A stretch of DNA of 52,059 nt from a virus. This document shows positions 32,499-44,021 of this stretch, piece after piece. The stretch covers positions 1 through 52,059 of IMG/VR virus record IMGVR_UViG_3300036792_000274. The stretch is one strand, 5' to 3'. The notes under the pieces were generated by a model. The model did not search any database. It was not told the DNA's origin and saw nothing but the letters and a program-made list of their open reading frames with translations. Every line of letters begins with the position of its first letter. Positions within the stretch are counted from its first letter, which is position 1. The translations under genes and the position numbers were made by a program.

Positions 32499-33584
32499 AT
32501 GCCCGATCAACCCGCCTCGCCGGCGGTCGCCGAGGTCGTGCCCGCAGGCGCAGGCCCACAGGTCGACCCGCTGCTCCCGGCCGCCGAGGTCACCCTCCCG
32601 CCCGGCGTCCAGCCGTCCCGCAACTACCTCGCCGCGGTCGAGCTCGGGCACGTCCTGGCGGCCTCGAACTACTACCGCGACGCGACCGACCCCGCGCAGG
32701 CGGCCGTCAAGGTGATGATCGGGATGGACCTGGGAGTCTCGCCCACCGCGGCGATTCAGGGCATCCACACGATGGAGGAAAACGGCAAGGTCATCTTCCT
32801 GACCGAAACCAAGCTGCTCGCCGCCGTGGTCAAAGGGCGCCCCGACGTCGAATACAAGATCGTCAAACGCGAACCCGAGTTCTTTGAAGCGGAATTCCTG
32901 CGGCGCAACGCCGAGGGCGAGTGGGAGGCCGAGGGGCCGAACATCAGCTGGACCCTCGAGCACGCACGCAAAGTCGTCAAAGGGTTCGACAAAAAGCCGA
33001 CGTGGAAGTTCAACGGAATCGTGATGCTCGGCTGGCGCGTGCTCTCGGAGGGGTTCCGGCTCTACTTCCCCGACGTCCTCGCCGGTCAGCCGATCTACAC
33101 GCTGGAGGAGTTCGACGCCGACGCCGACGACATGCGGCTGAAGGAGGCGATGGCGCCGGCCAAACCCGTCCCGCTGAACGACGCGAAGGCCGAGAATCTG
33201 CGCGAGGAAGCGCGGAAGGTCTACGACGAACTGAAGGCGATCAACCCCGACCGCCTGGTCGCCGGTCGCTTCGCCCAGATGGTCGCCAGCGCCGAGCACT
33301 CGCACGCCCGGCTCGAAACGGTCGTCGGCTCGCTGGTCGACCTCCGCGACACGGAGAAGACGATCGCCGAGCGCAGCGCCGAGCTCGAGGAGTTGGTCGG
33401 CGAGAAAGAGGCCAAGCCGACGATCGAACGCGCCGAGCGCCGCGGCAGCAACCGCGACCGGATCGCCGTGCTCGACAAGGCCATCGCCGAGGTCAAGGCC
33501 AAGGAAGAGAAACCGGCGGACGGCGAGGCGCCCGAGGCCCCGGCCGAGGCGCCCGTCGACGGCGACGCTCCCGCCGATGCCTAG
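32499..33584 (+). CDS. RecT-like single-strand annealing protein
   Basis: The product is 361 residues, with AGGAGT 6-8 nt upstream of ATG. The N-terminal half follows the RecT pattern: AAVELGHVLAASNYYRDATD, QAAVKVMIGMDLGVSPTAAI, the MEENGKVIFLTETKLLAAVV strand pair. Further on come KKPTWKFNGIVMLGWRVLSE and RLYFPDVLAGQPIYTLEEF. RecT proteins anneal complementary single strands during phage recombination and concatemer formation. The C-terminus is a long charged helix and an Ala/Glu/Pro tail. A matching nuclease lies at 34393. Confidence 0.75.
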   Translation: MPDQPASPAVAEVVPAGAGPQVDPLLPAAEVTLPPGVQPSRNYLAAVELGHVLAASNYYRDATDPAQAAVKVMIGMDLGVSPTAAIQGIHTMEENGKVIFLTETKLLAAVVKGRPDVEYKIVKREPEFFEAEFLRRNAEGEWEAEGPNISWTLEHARKVVKGFDKKPTWKFNGIVMLGWRVLSEGFRLYFPDVLAGQPIYTLEEFDADADDMRLKEAMAPAKPVPLNDAKAENLREEARKVYDELKAINPDRLVAGRFAQMVASAEHSHARLETVVGSLVDLRDTEKTIAERSAELEELVGEKEAKPTIERAERRGSNRDRIAVLDKAIAEVKAKEEKPADGEAPEAPAEAPVDGDAPADA

Positions 33585-34182: not shown

Positions 34183-34400
34183 GCGACCCGACGCCGCAGG
34201 AGCGGGCCCGCGACGCGATCTACGAGGGCATCGCGGCTCAGGCGGCCCAGCGCGACCCCGACGTCCTCAAGGAACTCGCCGAGGCGTACGCGAAGGTCAC
34301 CTGGGGCGCTCAGGGCGCCTATTCGTACGAGGCCGACTACCACCACACCGAGCACGGCGGCGAGCCGCGCCCGAGGCCGGAGGCTGGTTTCCGTGGCTGA
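34179..34400 (+). CDS. Small hypothetical protein
   Basis: The product is 73 residues, ATGA overlap. It has an N-terminal helix (PQERARDAIYEGIAAQAAQR) and a His/Arg-rich tail. It overlaps the nuclease gene by 8 nt. Confidence 0.6.
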   Translation: MSDPTPQERARDAIYEGIAAQAAQRDPDVLKELAEAYAKVTWGAQGAYSYEADYHHTEHGGEPRPRPEAGFRG

Positions 34401-35700
34401 TCTCACCGTGCGTCCCGAATGGCGCAACCTGCCGCCCGTCACCGAGGCCGAACAGCCGGTCGTCGGCGAGGGCTGGCAGCCGTCGCAGACGTTCCTCAAG
34501 CACCACGACCGTTGCGACCGCGCCGCCATGCTCTATCTGATCCACGGGGGCGGCGCCGGGTCCCACCCGCTGAACCGCGGGGCGATCTGGCACGACGTCG
34601 CCGCGCGCCTCACCCAGCACGCGATCAGCCAGCCGGACGGCGGCGAGCCGAAGGTGCAGAGCGTCGAGATCGGCAAGGAATTCCTGCTCGACTACCTGCG
34701 GGAAAACCCCCACCTGCAAGTCTCGGCGGTCGAGCGCGACGCCCTCCGCTACATGATCGCCAACTTCTGCATGGGCGAGGTCTGGGACCCGGGCAAGATC
34801 GTCGCCCTGGAGACGACGGTGACGCTCCAGATCGGGCGCTGGACGATCATCTGCCGGATCGACCGCGCCGAAACCATCGGGCCGGGCTTCCTCGAAGTCG
34901 TCGACTACAAGACGTCGTTCTCGCTCGAAGACGGCGAGGAATTCAAGGGCGAGTCCTACGACGAAAACGGCGAGCCGCGCTTCGCCGGGAACTTTCAGAC
35001 GATGCTCTACGCCCTGGCGCTCGCCGAGGGACTGCTCGACGACGGCCTGCCGCTCGGCGAAGACTTCGACCGCTTCAAGCTGCGGCTCGCCTACCCGCGC
35101 TACCTGCGCGACCGCGACACGCTCCCGCGCCTCGCCGCCCGCGAAGTGGTCGTCACCCGCAAGCAGCTGCTCGACTTCAGGATCGACATCGAACTCCAGT
35201 TGGAACGCCTGGAGGCGGTCAACTTCGGCGAACGCCGCTGGCAGCCGACGCCGGGCTCCCACTGCGCGGAGTGCCCGGCCGAGTACGCCTGCCCGCTGCC
35301 GCGCATCCTGCGGCCCGAGAGCCAGCACGCGAACCTCACGTCGATCGACGATCTCGAAAAGGCCGCGGCCGCCTGGTACTTCATGTCGCGCCGCAACGAA
35401 AACCTCAAGCGCCGGCTGAAGAAGGGCGCCGAACGGATCGGCGATCTCGACCCGGGCGCGCTGGAGATCGGCGACGAGGACGGCAACAAAGGCGTGCGGA
35501 TCGGGAACGACCTGGCGCTGCTCTTCTTGGCGAAGGAATCGAAAACGATCCCCGACAAGGAAGAACTCGAACGCGCCGTCACCCAGGCGGTGGAGTACGG
35601 CGAGAAGTTCGACATGGCCGAGCACATCCGCGTCTCGGAATCGACCGAATTTGCCAAACGAAAGGTGCCCCCCAGGCGCCAGAACGGAGGATCGAAGTGA
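34393..35700 (+). CDS. Cas4/AddB-like PD-(D/E)XK exonuclease with Fe-S cysteines
   Basis: The product is 435 residues from GTG 34393. The nuclease core is visible: Asp157 (RIDRAE), Glu168-x-x-Asp-Tyr-Lys173 (FLEVVDYKT) and Gln202-x3-Tyr206 (FQTMLYA). Cys41 plus Cys291-x2-Cys294-x5-Cys300 reproduce the Fe-S cluster arrangement of AddB and Cas4 nucleases. Such enzymes resect double-strand ends to feed RecT-type annealing proteins; one is encoded upstream at 32499. The last 130 residues are helical and acidic. The next gene overlaps by four bases. Confidence 0.8.
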   Translation: MADLTVRPEWRNLPPVTEAEQPVVGEGWQPSQTFLKHHDRCDRAAMLYLIHGGGAGSHPLNRGAIWHDVAARLTQHAISQPDGGEPKVQSVEIGKEFLLDYLRENPHLQVSAVERDALRYMIANFCMGEVWDPGKIVALETTVTLQIGRWTIICRIDRAETIGPGFLEVVDYKTSFSLEDGEEFKGESYDENGEPRFAGNFQTMLYALALAEGLLDDGLPLGEDFDRFKLRLAYPRYLRDRDTLPRLAAREVVVTRKQLLDFRIDIELQLERLEAVNFGERRWQPTPGSHCAECPAEYACPLPRILRPESQHANLTSIDDLEKAAAAWYFMSRRNENLKRRLKKGAERIGDLDPGALEIGDEDGNKGVRIGNDLALLFLAKESKTIPDKEELERAVTQAVEYGEKFDMAEHIRVSESTEFAKRKVPPRRQNGGSK

Positions 35701-36236
35701 GCGACGACGCAGGGACCATGAAGGCCGAGGTCGATCTCGGTCGCATCTTCGCCGACAGCGACTTCGGCGAGACGATCGCCGACCGGATCATCGACGCGGC
35801 GGCTGACCTCCTGGTCCGCGAAGCGGGCGTCAAGGTCACGGAGGGGCTGGCGGGGGAGATCACCAAGGCCCGCGAGCGGGTGATCGACGAGAAGCTGGAG
35901 GCGATCATCACCGAGGCGCTGACGAAGCCGATCAAACGCACCGACCAGTTCGGCCAGGACCGCGGCGGCGAGCCGGTCACGCTCAACGAGCTCGTGGTCA
36001 AACGCTTCGAGCAGTACCTCCAGCGGGCGGTCAAACCCGACGTGGGCGGCCGACCCAGCTACGGCGGCAACCCGACCGTGCTGGAGAAGATGATCGACGA
36101 CGCGATCGGGCGGCAGTTCACGGGCGAGATCAAGAAGGCGGTCGACGAGGCCACCGAGCAGGCGCGCGCCGCGGTCCAGACGTCGGCGGCCGAGATCCTG
36201 GCCGAGACGATCCGGCGGTCGGGGGCGCGCCTCTGA
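35697..36236 (+). CDS. Hypothetical helical protein
   Basis: The product is 179 residues from GTG 35697 with GGAGG upstream. It is helical, with long amphipathic stretches (IADRIIDAAADLLVREAGVK). The segment KPDVGGRPSYGGNPTVLEKM interrupts the helices. It is coupled to the nuclease gene; a role in recombination or replication is possible but unsupported. Confidence 0.65.
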   Translation: MSDDAGTMKAEVDLGRIFADSDFGETIADRIIDAAADLLVREAGVKVTEGLAGEITKARERVIDEKLEAIITEALTKPIKRTDQFGQDRGGEPVTLNELVVKRFEQYLQRAVKPDVGGRPSYGGNPTVLEKMIDDAIGRQFTGEIKKAVDEATEQARAAVQTSAAEILAETIRRSGARL

Positions 36237-36703
36237 TGGCCGAGCAGACCAGCGGCTACAACTACCGGGTACTCGCGCTCGCCGCGCCGGGGACGATCGG
36301 CGAGTCGGACTTCCCCGGCATCTACGACCTTGGCTGGCACCGCGGCCGCACGCCCACCGCGGCGGTCGAGGCGGCCTGCGAGGCGAACGGGCTTCCCGAG
36401 ACGGCGACCGGCACGGTGGTCGCCGTCGCCGAGCGCCAGTGGAACGAACGGCAGGCCAAGAAACAGATGGTCCCGATCTGGGAGATCGTCGAGGTCACCG
36501 AGGAGAACGGCGCCGCGGCGGACCCGCGCGTCCCCCCGGCCGCCGGCGACGACCTGGCGGACGGGCTCGACCCCGAGCGCGGCTGCGAGTGGACGGAAGA
36601 CGGGCTGACGTGCGAGCACCTGCCTGGCGACCACGGCGAGCACGGGCTCGGCATGTGCCGGGTCGAGAACTGCCCCTGCGGCGGCTACGAACCGAAGCCG
36701 TGA
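36236..36703 (+). CDS. Hypothetical protein with C-terminal cysteines
   Basis: The product is 155 residues (TGATGG overlap). The N-terminal domain is beta-rich (YRVLALAAPGTIGESDFPG). The C-terminal part has Cys/His pairs (CEWTEDGLTCEHLPGDHGEH, then CRVENCPCGG), a possible zinc site. It overlaps the JAMM protease gene by four bases. Confidence 0.65.
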   Translation: MAEQTSGYNYRVLALAAPGTIGESDFPGIYDLGWHRGRTPTAAVEAACEANGLPETATGTVVAVAERQWNERQAKKQMVPIWEIVEVTEENGAAADPRVPPAAGDDLADGLDPERGCEWTEDGLTCEHLPGDHGEHGLGMCRVENCPCGGYEPKP

Positions 36704-37161
36704 TCGACGTCAACGACTGGCTCCGCGAGGAGTTGATCCGGCGCGCCGAGGCGGAGGACCCCGAGGAGTGCTGCGGGTTGATCTCGCGCACCCGCAAGGG
36801 GCTCGCGCTCTGGGGCGCCACCAACGTCGCCAAGGACCCGACCGCCGGGTTCGAGATCGCGCCCGGGTCGCTACTCGCGATCATCACCGAGATCGGCAAC
36901 CAGGGCCAGGAGTTGGTCGGCGTCTACCACTCGCACCCGCACGGGCCGGTCACGCCGTCGACGGAGGACATCCTCCTCGCCGGGAACTGGCCCGGCCTGA
37001 CGTGGGTGATCGCCGGCCGCTCGGTCTGCGGCGGCTGCAAAGGCGAGGGCGAGGTCGCCGGGCCCCGGGCGGAGGGCGCGCCCGCGGCCGCCACGGTGAA
37101 GTGCGACGGCTGCGACGGCGCCGGGACCGTCCCCGACGTCTGGGCCGGAGTACTCGCGTGA
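36700..37161 (+). CDS. JAMM (Mov34/JAB) metalloprotease with zinc ribbon
   Basis: The product is 153 residues from GTG 36700. The JAMM zinc motif is complete: Glu22/23 (PEECCG), then His77-x-His79-x7-Ser87-x2-Asp90 in VYHSHPHGPVTPSTED. JAMM enzymes cleave isopeptide bonds to ubiquitin-like tags or remove small modifiers. After the core, a DnaJ-type zinc ribbon is attached (Cys110-x2-Cys113, Cys135-x2-Cys138). Tail-associated JAB domains occur in lambda K, but this gene lies in the early region beside ASCH and zinc proteins, far from the tail. Counteracting a host ubiquitin-like defence is a possible role, by inference only. Confidence 0.8.
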   Translation: MIDVNDWLREELIRRAEAEDPEECCGLISRTRKGLALWGATNVAKDPTAGFEIAPGSLLAIITEIGNQGQELVGVYHSHPHGPVTPSTEDILLAGNWPGLTWVIAGRSVCGGCKGEGEVAGPRAEGAPAAATVKCDGCDGAGTVPDVWAGVLA

Positions 37162-37337
37162 GCACGCCGCACGAACGCCTGGTCGTCCTGATCGCCTGCG
37201 AAAAGCTGGAGATCGGCGAAGCCTACGGCTGGACGATTGAGCGCGTCGCCAGCCACTACCTCTACAGGGTGGCGATCCCGAACCAGCCGATCGTCGACGT
37301 CACCGACGCCGAGATTCACGAACGGAGGCCCCAGTGA
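37158..37337 (+). CDS. Small hypothetical protein
   Basis: The product is 59 residues from GTG 37158 (GTGA overlap). Its pattern is LVVLIACEKLEIGEAYGWTI followed by a strand pair. It sits between the JAMM and ASCH genes with overlaps on both sides. Function unknown. Confidence 0.6.
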   Translation: MSTPHERLVVLIACEKLEIGEAYGWTIERVASHYLYRVAIPNQPIVDVTDAEIHERRPQ

Positions 37338-37813
37338 TCTTCAAGCCCGAGCTCGCCGCCGCCATCGTGCTCGGCGAGAAGACCGCGACCCGGCGGATCG
37401 CCGTCGAGAATCCGCGCGCCATGTGGCGGCTCGAGCGCCCGTGGCGCTACGAACCCGGCAAACGCTTCGCGGTGCAGCCGGGCCGGGGCAAGGACGGAAT
37501 CGCGATGGCGATCGTCACCAACCGGCGTATGGACCCGCTGAGCGCCGTCACGAGCCGCGACGCGCGCTGCGAGGGCTTCCCGACCCGAGACGCCTTCGTC
37601 GCCGCGTGGCGCGCCATCAACGGCTCCTACGACCCCGATCAGCGGGTACACGTCGTCGAATTCGAGCTCGACGGTCCCTACTGCGCCGGATGCGACGGCT
37701 GCGGTTGGTGCGAGGGGTCGCCCGCGTTCAGCTGCACCGACTGTCGCGGCACCGGCCGCGAACTCTCTGCGGGCGCCCTGGCGGTGCTCGCCGAGGTCCG
37801 ACCGGACGACTAG
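37334..37813 (+). CDS. ASCH-domain protein with zinc ribbon
   Basis: The product is 159 residues from GTG 37334. The ASCH/PUA-like domain covers residues 1-115: FKPELAAAIVLGEKTATRRI, YEPGKRFAVQPGRGK, MDPLSAVTSRDARCEGFPTR, YDPDQRVHVVEFEL. ASCH domains bind RNA or hydrolyse modified nucleosides such as N4-acetylcytidine. A DnaJ-type zinc ribbon (CAGCDGCGWC ... CTDCRGTG) is fused C-terminally, like that in the JAMM protein two genes upstream. The substrate is unknown. Confidence 0.75.
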   Translation: MIFKPELAAAIVLGEKTATRRIAVENPRAMWRLERPWRYEPGKRFAVQPGRGKDGIAMAIVTNRRMDPLSAVTSRDARCEGFPTRDAFVAAWRAINGSYDPDQRVHVVEFELDGPYCAGCDGCGWCEGSPAFSCTDCRGTGRELSAGALAVLAEVRPDD

Positions 37814-38170: not shown

Positions 38171-38767
38171 TCAGGCCGCGACCAGCTGCTCTTGGCCGAC
38201 CGGCGGCGGCGAGGAGATCCCCGCCTCCTCCACGGTCGCGTAGAGCATCCGGCCGACGCGGATCAGCGCCCGCGGCTCCCGCCACGATTCGCCCTCGAGC
38301 ACCTGCGCCTCCGGGTCGCAGTAGTGCTTCCGGTCATGGCCGTCGACCACCCGTTTGTCGTCGGCCCAGACGCCGGCGGCGGTCAGCGCGTCCTCAATCG
38401 CGCGCCGGAGCTTGCCGGAGTCGTGGGTGTCGGTGACGTCAGGGTGCGCCGGCGCCGCGGGACGGAGCAGGTGCGCGAACTGACCCGTGCGGTAGTGACC
38501 GCCAGGCCGTGCCTCGAAGGCGTCGATGCAGACCCAGAGCGGCCCGTCGAGCGCGGGCTTGCCGCGCCAGGCGATCCCCGCCTCGCGCTCGACCATCGCC
38601 ATCCACTCGGCGGTGCCCTTCGTCGCGTGCCGGTACTTCAGGATCAGGCGACCGTCCGCGTCGCGCGCCTCGCTGAAGCGTTTGCCGAGCGGTTCGGCCG
38701 TCTTCGACCCTGCGCCCTTCGGCTGGCCGTAGACCGTCATTCGGAGGAGTTCCGGGCCTCGTTTCAT
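38171..38767 (-). CDS. rusA: RusA-like Holliday junction resolvase
   Basis: The product is 198 residues from ATG at 38767; ATG at 38836 would give 221. The N-terminal strand MTVYGQPKGAGSK is followed by the acidic core. The core HDSGKLRRAIEDALTAAGVW then ADDKRV matches RusA, where conserved aspartates bind metal and cut four-way junctions. The first Asp triplet is diverged (usually PDxDN). It is encoded leftward, against the surrounding genes. A resolvase fits the RecT-like/nuclease recombination route here. Confidence 0.75.
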   Translation of the reverse strand: MKRGPELLRMTVYGQPKGAGSKTAEPLGKRFSEARDADGRLILKYRHATKGTAEWMAMVEREAGIAWRGKPALDGPLWVCIDAFEARPGGHYRTGQFAHLLRPAAPAHPDVTDTHDSGKLRRAIEDALTAAGVWADDKRVVDGHDRKHYCDPEAQVLEGESWREPRALIRVGRMLYATVEEAGISSPPPVGQEQLVAA

Positions 38768-38849
38768 ACCCGGAATCGTGGGTGCCAACTCGGACGGAAC
38801 GGCTGCAAAACGACGGAAGGCGCCCATCGGCGCCATCCGGTCGGCGGCC

Positions 38850-39641: not shown

Positions 39642-39808
39642 CGGGGCGAGTCGGACATAGGCAGCGACGGTGAATGGAGGCGCAGTTGGGCCGGGCAGAC
39701 AACCCCCGGAACCGGGCGCCAAGGGGGCCGTCGTGGTGGAGCGCGTTTGGAACTGCGTTAAGGGGTGGTCGGGCGGGAACTGCCCCGACCACGGAAAGAG
39801 CACAGGCG
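39642..39808. other. Divergent intergenic region with hairpin
   Basis: This lies between the leftward small gene and the rightward primase-like gene, so it should hold divergent promoters. I could not identify boxes with confidence. GTGGTCGGG (39765-39773) pairs perfectly with CCCGACCAC (39784-39792) 16 nt before the TTG start at 39809. Confidence 0.35.
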
Positions 39809-42884: not shown

Positions 42885-43087
42885 TGGCGGTCACGACGAA
42901 GCAGCTGCGCGCGGACCTCGCCGGCGCCCGGGGCGACCTGGGCGCGATGGAATCCGACAACGCCGGGCGCGAACGCCGCGGCCGCCAGGCGGCGCACGAT
43001 GCGGCGCGGCTGGGTATGAAGCTCGAGCAAATCCGTGATCTCGAAGAGCGCCTGCGGGCGAGAGGAGTAGACCCCCAAGATGGCTGA
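42884..43087 (+). CDS. Small coiled-coil protein
   Basis: The product is 67 residues. It is almost wholly helical with heptad spacing (LRADLAGARGDLGAMESDNA, LEQIRDLEERLRARG). It overlaps the DUF5131 gene by 8 nt and could be a partner of that protein; untested. Confidence 0.6.
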   Translation: MAVTTKQLRADLAGARGDLGAMESDNAGRERRGRQAAHDAARLGMKLEQIRDLEERLRARGVDPQDG

Positions 43088-44021
43088 CGCCTCGAAAATC
43101 AGCTGGACCGACCACACCTTCAACCCGTGGATGGGCTGCCAGCGCGTCTCGCAGGGCTGCGTCCATTGCTACGCCGAGACGCTGATCACCCAGCGCCAGG
43201 GCAAGGACTTGTGGGGCTCGAAGGACAAACGGGCCCGGACCAGCGACGCGCTCTGGAAACGCCCGTTCAAATGGAACCGCGAAAGCAAAGCCGACGTCGA
43301 CGGCGGCGGCCGCGTCCACCGCGTCTTCTGCGCCTCGCTCGCCGACGTCTTCGAGGACGCGCCCGTTCCCAACGCCTGCCGCCCCGACGTCTTCGACGTG
43401 ATCCGGCGGACGCCCTGGCTCGACTACCAGCTGCTCACCAAGCGGCCGGAGAACATCGCCGCGATGCTGCCCGACGACTGGGGCCGCGGCTGGCCGAACG
43501 TGTGGCTGGGGACGTCCATCGAGGACCGCCGCGTCGTCGACCGCGCCGTCGTGCTCGGCGAGGTCCCGGCCTTCCGGCGCTTCATCAGCTACGAGCCCGC
43601 GATCGGCCCGATCATGTGCGAGTGCCACAGCGTCGCGTTCGAGCCCGACTCCTCCATCCCCGAGGTCACCTACTCCTGGCTCGACGACTACACCGGCCCC
43701 GATCTCACCTGGTATAACGGCGACGGCGATCTCGCCTTCGACTGGCTGATCGCTGGCGGCGAGTCGGGCTCGGAACGCCGCGAGATGGAGCTCGGCTGGG
43801 CCGACGACGTGCGCCACCAGTGCGAAAAGGAGGGCGTCGCCTTCTTCTTCAAGCAGATCAGCGCCTTCCGCCCCGGCCAGGGCGAGGACGCGCTCGGCGA
43901 GGTCCACCACAACTTTCCCGCCAGCTGGGACCGGAGCGGCCTAGACGCCCACCCGGTCTACGCCGACAACGACGGCCTGCTGGCGACCCCCGTAAAACCA
44001 AACCAAGGAGGATCACAGTGA
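43080..44021 (+). CDS. DUF5131 (Gp37/Gp68 family) protein
   Basis: The product is 313 residues. The family hallmark [20 protein letters not shown] followed by VHCYAE places Cys20, Cys27 and Cys30 near the N-terminus, a possible metal or Fe-S site. Further conserved parts are [59 protein letters not shown] and AFFFKQ. These are hallmarks of this TIM-barrel-like family, common in actinophages and bacteria. The biochemical role is not firmly established to my knowledge. It ends by overlapping the collagen-like gene start. Confidence 0.85.

Follow-up and report, generated by a model that had tools for sequence, protein, structure and literature searches.

A stand-alone JAMM/M67-family protein with an optional zinc ribbon in the early operon of a contractile-tailed phage lineage

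The virus contig IMGVR_UViG_3300036792_000274 (52,059 bases, 69% GC; this whole stretch is referred to here as the window) encodes a stand-alone JAB protein that is a member of the JAMM/M67 (Prok-JAB) peptidases by motif, profile and fold. For this protein, we directly observed an intact motif, a JAMM fold, a place in an early operon, conservation in orthologs, and absence from relatives that keep their virion genes. Activity, a host substrate and a benefit to the phage are what we infer, and we give roughly even chances to the reading that JAB is an active JAMM peptidase whose target in the host is a ubiquitin-like or sulfur-carrier protein or its conjugates. Stand-alone phage JABs are not new; the early operon is a third setting for them, after tail and head modules, and we found no description of an early-operon lineage in the open-access literature.

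The JAB open reading frame (36700 to 37161, plus strand) has 153 codons of coding-like composition and a GTG start that overlaps the upstream stop codon (GTGA). Its product matched the Pfam Prok-JAB model PF14464 at 60.5 bits (E = 1.8e-16; cut-off, 25). The JAMM motif has been defined as EXnH(S/T)HX7SXXD (PMC300881), and residues E23, H77, H79, S87 and D90 have the exact EXnHSHX7SXXD spacing. This catalytic span covers 36766 to 36969 on the plus strand (E23, 36766 to 36768; H77, 36928 to 36930; H79, 36934 to 36936; S87, 36958 to 36960; D90, 36967 to 36969). A preliminary description of this DNA had named the same residues, with the glutamate given as E22 or E23; ortholog alignments show that E23, not E22, is the invariant one, and none of the catalytic residues varies among the three orthologs or across a 45-row family alignment. 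Intact active-site residues alone do not prove peptidase activity, and the zinc-dependent activity of JAB is putative.

The structure model of JAB (mean pLDDT, 84) contains the full JAMM core. Its best PDB match is Pyrococcus furiosus JAMM1 (5ld9; Z 16.7, 2.4 Å over 114 residues), with the JAMM1-SAMP2 complex at Z 16.1 and archaeal Rpn11 and AMSH next, and the predicted fold is thus that of a JAMM peptidase and not of a non-protease JAB-like protein. Citrobacter BubCD (9ea4) is also among the structural matches, at a Z of 11.4 that reflects the common fold only. The best NCBIfam model is the desampylase NF041370, at 64.7 bits, under its equivalog cut-off of 130. P. furiosus JAMM1 and haloarchaeal HvJAMM1, which represent this type, resemble the window JAB in being a minimal stand-alone JAMM domain with the same motif. 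However, they are cellular, archaeal and without an inserted ribbon, the window JAB scores at half the curated cut-off, and the JAMM1 substrate SAMP has no known counterpart for the window phage.

A zinc ribbon is inserted in JAB at 37021 to 37131 on the plus strand, with C110, C113, C135 and C138 in two CXXCXGXG motifs. It had first been taken for a DnaJ-type ribbon that follows the domain. The two motifs are there, but in the structure model the ribbon (pLDDT of about 50) sits inside the domain, between the final two core strands (E101-107 and E145-151). PF00684 (DnaJ central) reached 18.4 bits against a cut-off of 32.7, with two CXXCXGXG repeats and not four, and the DnaJ-type label is, as judged from these matches, a motif resemblance. 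One ortholog (G009) keeps all four cysteines in a diverged loop, and the other (G408) has a short hairpin in place of the ribbon; because of the latter, we regard the ribbon as optional. No ribbon was found in any of the cellular JABs examined or in the JAB of phage Patos (gp12).

The same motif recurs elsewhere in the window. Seven CXXCXGXG motifs occur in five otherwise unrelated phage proteins (3625 to 3981, 26418 to 27044, 31464 to 32000, JAB itself and 37334 to 37813), against an average of 0.04 in residue-shuffled proteins, and the ribbon looks like a reused module in this phage. Additionally, the JAB-less relative G004 encodes a 130-amino-acid protein (L152:2096-2488) whose ribbon is similar to that of JAB (39.5%, E = 7e-5).

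JAB is coupled to a 155-amino-acid gene just upstream ("up"; 36236 to 36703, plus strand), the stop codon of which overlaps the JAB start. The Up protein has a small alpha/beta domain of unknown function and a Cys/His-rich tail (CEW-EDG-C-H-H-C-CPC; 36584 to 36703, plus strand). The window and G009 alone have this tail; they are also the two phages whose JAB bears a ribbon, so the tail tracks the ribbon rather than JAB. With a sample of three phages, common ancestry may account for this. The idea of JAB and the Up tail as a single unit fitted two JAB phages and was broken by G408, which has a JAB but neither the tail nor the ribbon. The idea that Up is a ubiquitin-like partner supplied by the phage itself was rejected too: the structure model of Up was poor (pLDDT, 59), its best structural match was PaaB-like (Z 7), and it shows no conserved C-terminal glycine motif.

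The virion genes of the window comprise a Mu-type portal (9 to 1835) and head protease, a tail sheath, a tube, and gp25-like and J-like baseplate proteins; the sheath, tube and baseplate genes indicate a contractile tail. JAB, at 36700, is remote from these tail and head genes. Instead, it was placed in a run of overlapping genes on the plus strand, with a PD-(D/E)XK exonuclease (34393 to 35700; PF12705, 55.3 bits; phrog_69), a 172-amino-acid gene of unknown function (35718 to 36236; phrog_26090) and up before it, and a 59-amino-acid open reading frame (37158 to 37337) and an ASCH-domain protein with its own C-terminal CXXCXGXG ribbon (37334 to 37813; PF04266, 26.6 bits) after it. Nearby are a RecT-like annealing protein (32499 to 33584, plus strand; phrog_561, E = 1.3e-5), a RusA-like resolvase (38171 to 38836, minus strand; phrog_140) and a primase starting at 39674, in agreement with the early operon of recombination, zinc and ASCH genes first described. 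JAB was likewise correctly called stand-alone, and no tail partners accompany it. Among the window proteins (for PHROG, among the matches listed), we recognised no NlpC/P60, ubiquitin-like, ThiF/E1, E2 or MoaD/ThiS-like protein, and no CD-NTase or E1-E2 Cap2 family. Farther downstream, a DUF5131 protein (43080 to 44021; E = 2.1e-67 in the window set) has a close relative in G008 (59%).

A search with the sheath protein gave ten related contigs, which are uncultured and of unstated completeness. G009 (IMGVR_UViG_3300022910_000006) carries a JAB ortholog of 48 to 50% identity in the same gene order. The G408 ortholog (IMGVR_UViG_3300037470_000539; 55% identity) is 123 amino acids long and has all catalytic residues, and its stop codon overlaps the ASCH start. 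Wider searches returned only G009 with protein patterns and G408 with a DNA pattern. The three JAB phages have in common the order exonuclease, up, JAB, (small open reading frame), ASCH, with overlapping start and stop codons; the small frame is an 80-amino-acid zinc open reading frame in G009 and is missing from G408, and ASCH lies directly or closely downstream of JAB in all three. The orthologs therefore occupy the same early operon and are not found only with tail genes. Because JAB has diverged about as much as its neighbours (46 to 53% for the exonuclease, 49 to 51% for ASCH), we take it to have been inherited and kept under selection for long.

No JAB was detected, even by a sensitive profile, in the near-full-length relatives G004, G005, G007 and G008, and none in the searched stretches of two further contigs, L151 and L154 (the latter a partial contig). 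G004, G005, G007, G008 and L154 have the sheath or the exonuclease in common with the window, and every near-full-length relative examined has the exonuclease. Between up and ASCH, G005 and L151 have no more than about 120 to 230 bp, so that JAB is cleanly absent there. Since relatives without JAB keep virion genes, JAB is dispensable for particle building in this lineage. A sheath tree groups the three JAB phages in a single supported clade (100/99) next to a JAB-less clade, which implies one gain or one loss. Within the JAB phages, the JAB tree pairs G009 with G408 (98/92), whereas by sheath the closest pair is the window and G009 (100/100; L075, L159 and window genes), a conflict hinting at recombination. 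In the window and G009, the RusA-like gene (L149:9704-10315 outside the window) is inverted; in G005, L154 and G408, it is codirectional.

To place JAB in its family, we scored the three orthologs with group profiles. Cellular M67-type JABs gave 84 to 98 bits, a range biased upward because this comparison set was picked by similarity to the window JAB; actinobacterial JABs gave 67 to 72 bits, tail K proteins 63 to 70, actinophage head JABs 56 to 62, and Cap3-type JABs, represented by an actinobacterial profile, 14 to 21. These scores put the window JAB on the side of the family that holds JAMM1, Mec and phage K, far from CBASS Cap3-type proteins. In the JAB tree, Cap3-type (100/99), tail K, head and early-operon rows each formed a supported clade, and the early-operon JABs were not nested in the Cap3-type, tail-K, head or actinobacterial clades. 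We nevertheless abandoned fixing their nearest kin by tree, as AU tests did not reject joining them to tail K, head, actinobacterial Mec-like or Cap3-type rows (p 0.12 to 0.62).

Bacterial M67 JABs (ThiS/MoaD/CysO-linked, Mec-like) are of the same sequence type and size as the window JAB, although those examined lack a ribbon and the window JAB has no detected sulfur-carrier or ThiF neighbour. JABs of this type occurred in 88 of 149 Actinobacteria genomes, and plasmid matches were to cellular desampylase/M67 proteins. Our host search found sheath-like proteins of up to 33 to 35% in actinobacterial genomes and no match for the phage exonuclease in 396 genomes; Actinobacteria are one plausible host group.

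Earlier work described JABs in the tail clusters of lambdoid phages and of T1 (PMC1779556). The preliminary description had them usually in tail-tip proteins with NlpC/P60, which is incomplete: stand-alone JABs occur in many phages of Gordonia and Mycobacterium, next to the genes for portal, MuF and capsid proteins. The tail K proteins of lambda and T1 are broadly on the same side of the family as the window JAB, but they are fused to NlpC/P60 and are encoded next to I and J among the tail genes, whereas the window JAB is a 153-amino-acid stand-alone protein of an early operon. Similar in size to the window JAB are the stand-alone "metalloproteases" Patos gp12, Patience gp19 and Candle gp11; the Gordonia and Mycobacterium JABs, however, form a separate supported clade and lie between portal and capsid genes, unlike the window JAB with its exonuclease and ASCH neighbours. 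Actinophage head-module JABs (L003, L104, L105, L106 and L115 to L117) are annotated inconsistently as metalloprotease, tail protein, capsid maturation protease or even major capsid protein, and a part in head maturation is possible for them. Among isolated phages, the nearest matches to the window JAB were these tail K and head-module JABs, plus a weak JAB-like match near the lysis genes, outside the head/tail module, in Curtobacterium phage Shrew (gene 36; L107:6938-7267).

If active, JAB would be a competent JAMM zinc peptidase acting in the infected-cell cytoplasm and not in virion assembly. Most likely, it would either cut a host beta-grasp protein of the ubiquitin-like or sulfur-carrier type after its C-terminal glycine region or sever the (iso)peptide bond that links such a protein to a target. 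The substrate is taken to be a host protein because we recognised no beta-grasp partner among the window proteins. The ribbon would be an optional docking insert that could tune substrate choice or stability. A more specific version, an early-expressed JAMM isopeptidase of one contractile-tail lineage that strips ubiquitin-like or sulfur-carrier conjugates of the host in the course of infection and owes its choice of substrates to an interchangeable ribbon, seems to us rather unlikely as a whole. Within the main reading, two narrower forms are about equally likely, each well short of an even chance and overlapping in confidence with the reading that contains it.

In the first form, which we hold tentatively, JAB would be a counter-defence deconjugase. 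Bil, Bub and type II CBASS are systems that attach ubiquitin-like tags, and JAB would strip these tags. This agrees with the early operon, with the accessory presence of JAB in one clade beside a JAB-less one, with the JAMM1-like fold and the BubCD match, and with the lack of a detected partner in the window. The earlier suggestion of a phage deconjugase fits to the extent that the closest fold is that of a true deconjugase, JAMM1; its specific link to Cap2/Cap3 or Bil was not supported, given the distance from Cap3-type sequences (14 to 21 bits, versus 56 to 98 for other groups), PADLOC JAB models that matched at E = 0.0055 or weaker over motif-length stretches, and a search that found no defence-directed gene context. 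Cap3 shares the JAMM core motif with the window JAB but is distant in sequence and in a separate clade, and BilD and BubC/D sit in operons with ubiquitin-like, E1 and E2 genes, none of which was recognised in the window. Moreover, Cap3 treatment of cGAS conjugates caused a negligible change in cGAMP output (PMC10097602), so CBASS is possibly not disarmed by deconjugation alone. The pattern of JAB needs one gain or loss, whereas arms-race genes typically show repeated gain and loss.

The second form, a doubtful one to much the same degree, is a rewiring of host sulfur carriers. CysO/Mec, MoaD/ThiS and TtuB are types of housekeeping sulfur-carrier pathway, and JAB would release amino acids or extensions from CysO-, MoaD- or ThiS-type proteins in the manner of Mec or QbsD; effects on tRNA thiolation, alongside the ASCH protein, would also be covered. 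The affinity of JAB to cellular M67-type proteins (from the biased set) and to actinobacterial JABs is consistent with this form, and M67-type JABs are common in Actinomycetota. Prokaryotic JABs are also tied to ThiS/MoaD and cysteine synthase operons (PMC1779556). However, we recognised no sulfur or cysteine gene near JAB, and the early JAB lineage is not nested in the actinobacterial clade.

Outside the main reading, the operon neighbours point to DNA/RNA processing, and JAB may have a different role. As a RadC-like, nucleic-acid-linked accessory of the recombination operon, it would work with the exonuclease and the ASCH protein, whose order with up and JAB is kept in three phages with overlapping codons; nucleic-acid roles have been proposed for RadC JABs (PMC5512222). 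We consider this improbable: RadC models matched JAB only marginally (14 bits), motif and fold are of the classic JAMM1 type, and the exonuclease operon persists in JAB-less relatives. A displaced morphogenesis protease, like lambda K or the actinophage head-module metalloproteases, is very improbable, for although these are the nearest matches in annotated phages and common ancestry was unrejected by the AU test, JAB lies beside neither tail nor head genes nor NlpC/P60, the phage has its own Mu-type head protease, and relatives of the same sheath family do without JAB.

Bacterial ubiquitin-like tagging takes part in phage defence. The phage inhibitors in the literature we searched (Vs.4 and Acb-type sponges) sequester nucleotide signals and do not remove tags, and this mostly open-access literature yielded no example of a phage JAB deconjugase that counters defence. 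A counter-defence role for JAB is possible, as a guess to which no specific finding points. Even so, JAB, encoded outside the tail and head modules, can be put to the test as a specific candidate for the removal of tags by a phage, and the set of three orthologs, one of them ribbon-less, provides material for probing the role of the inserted ribbon.
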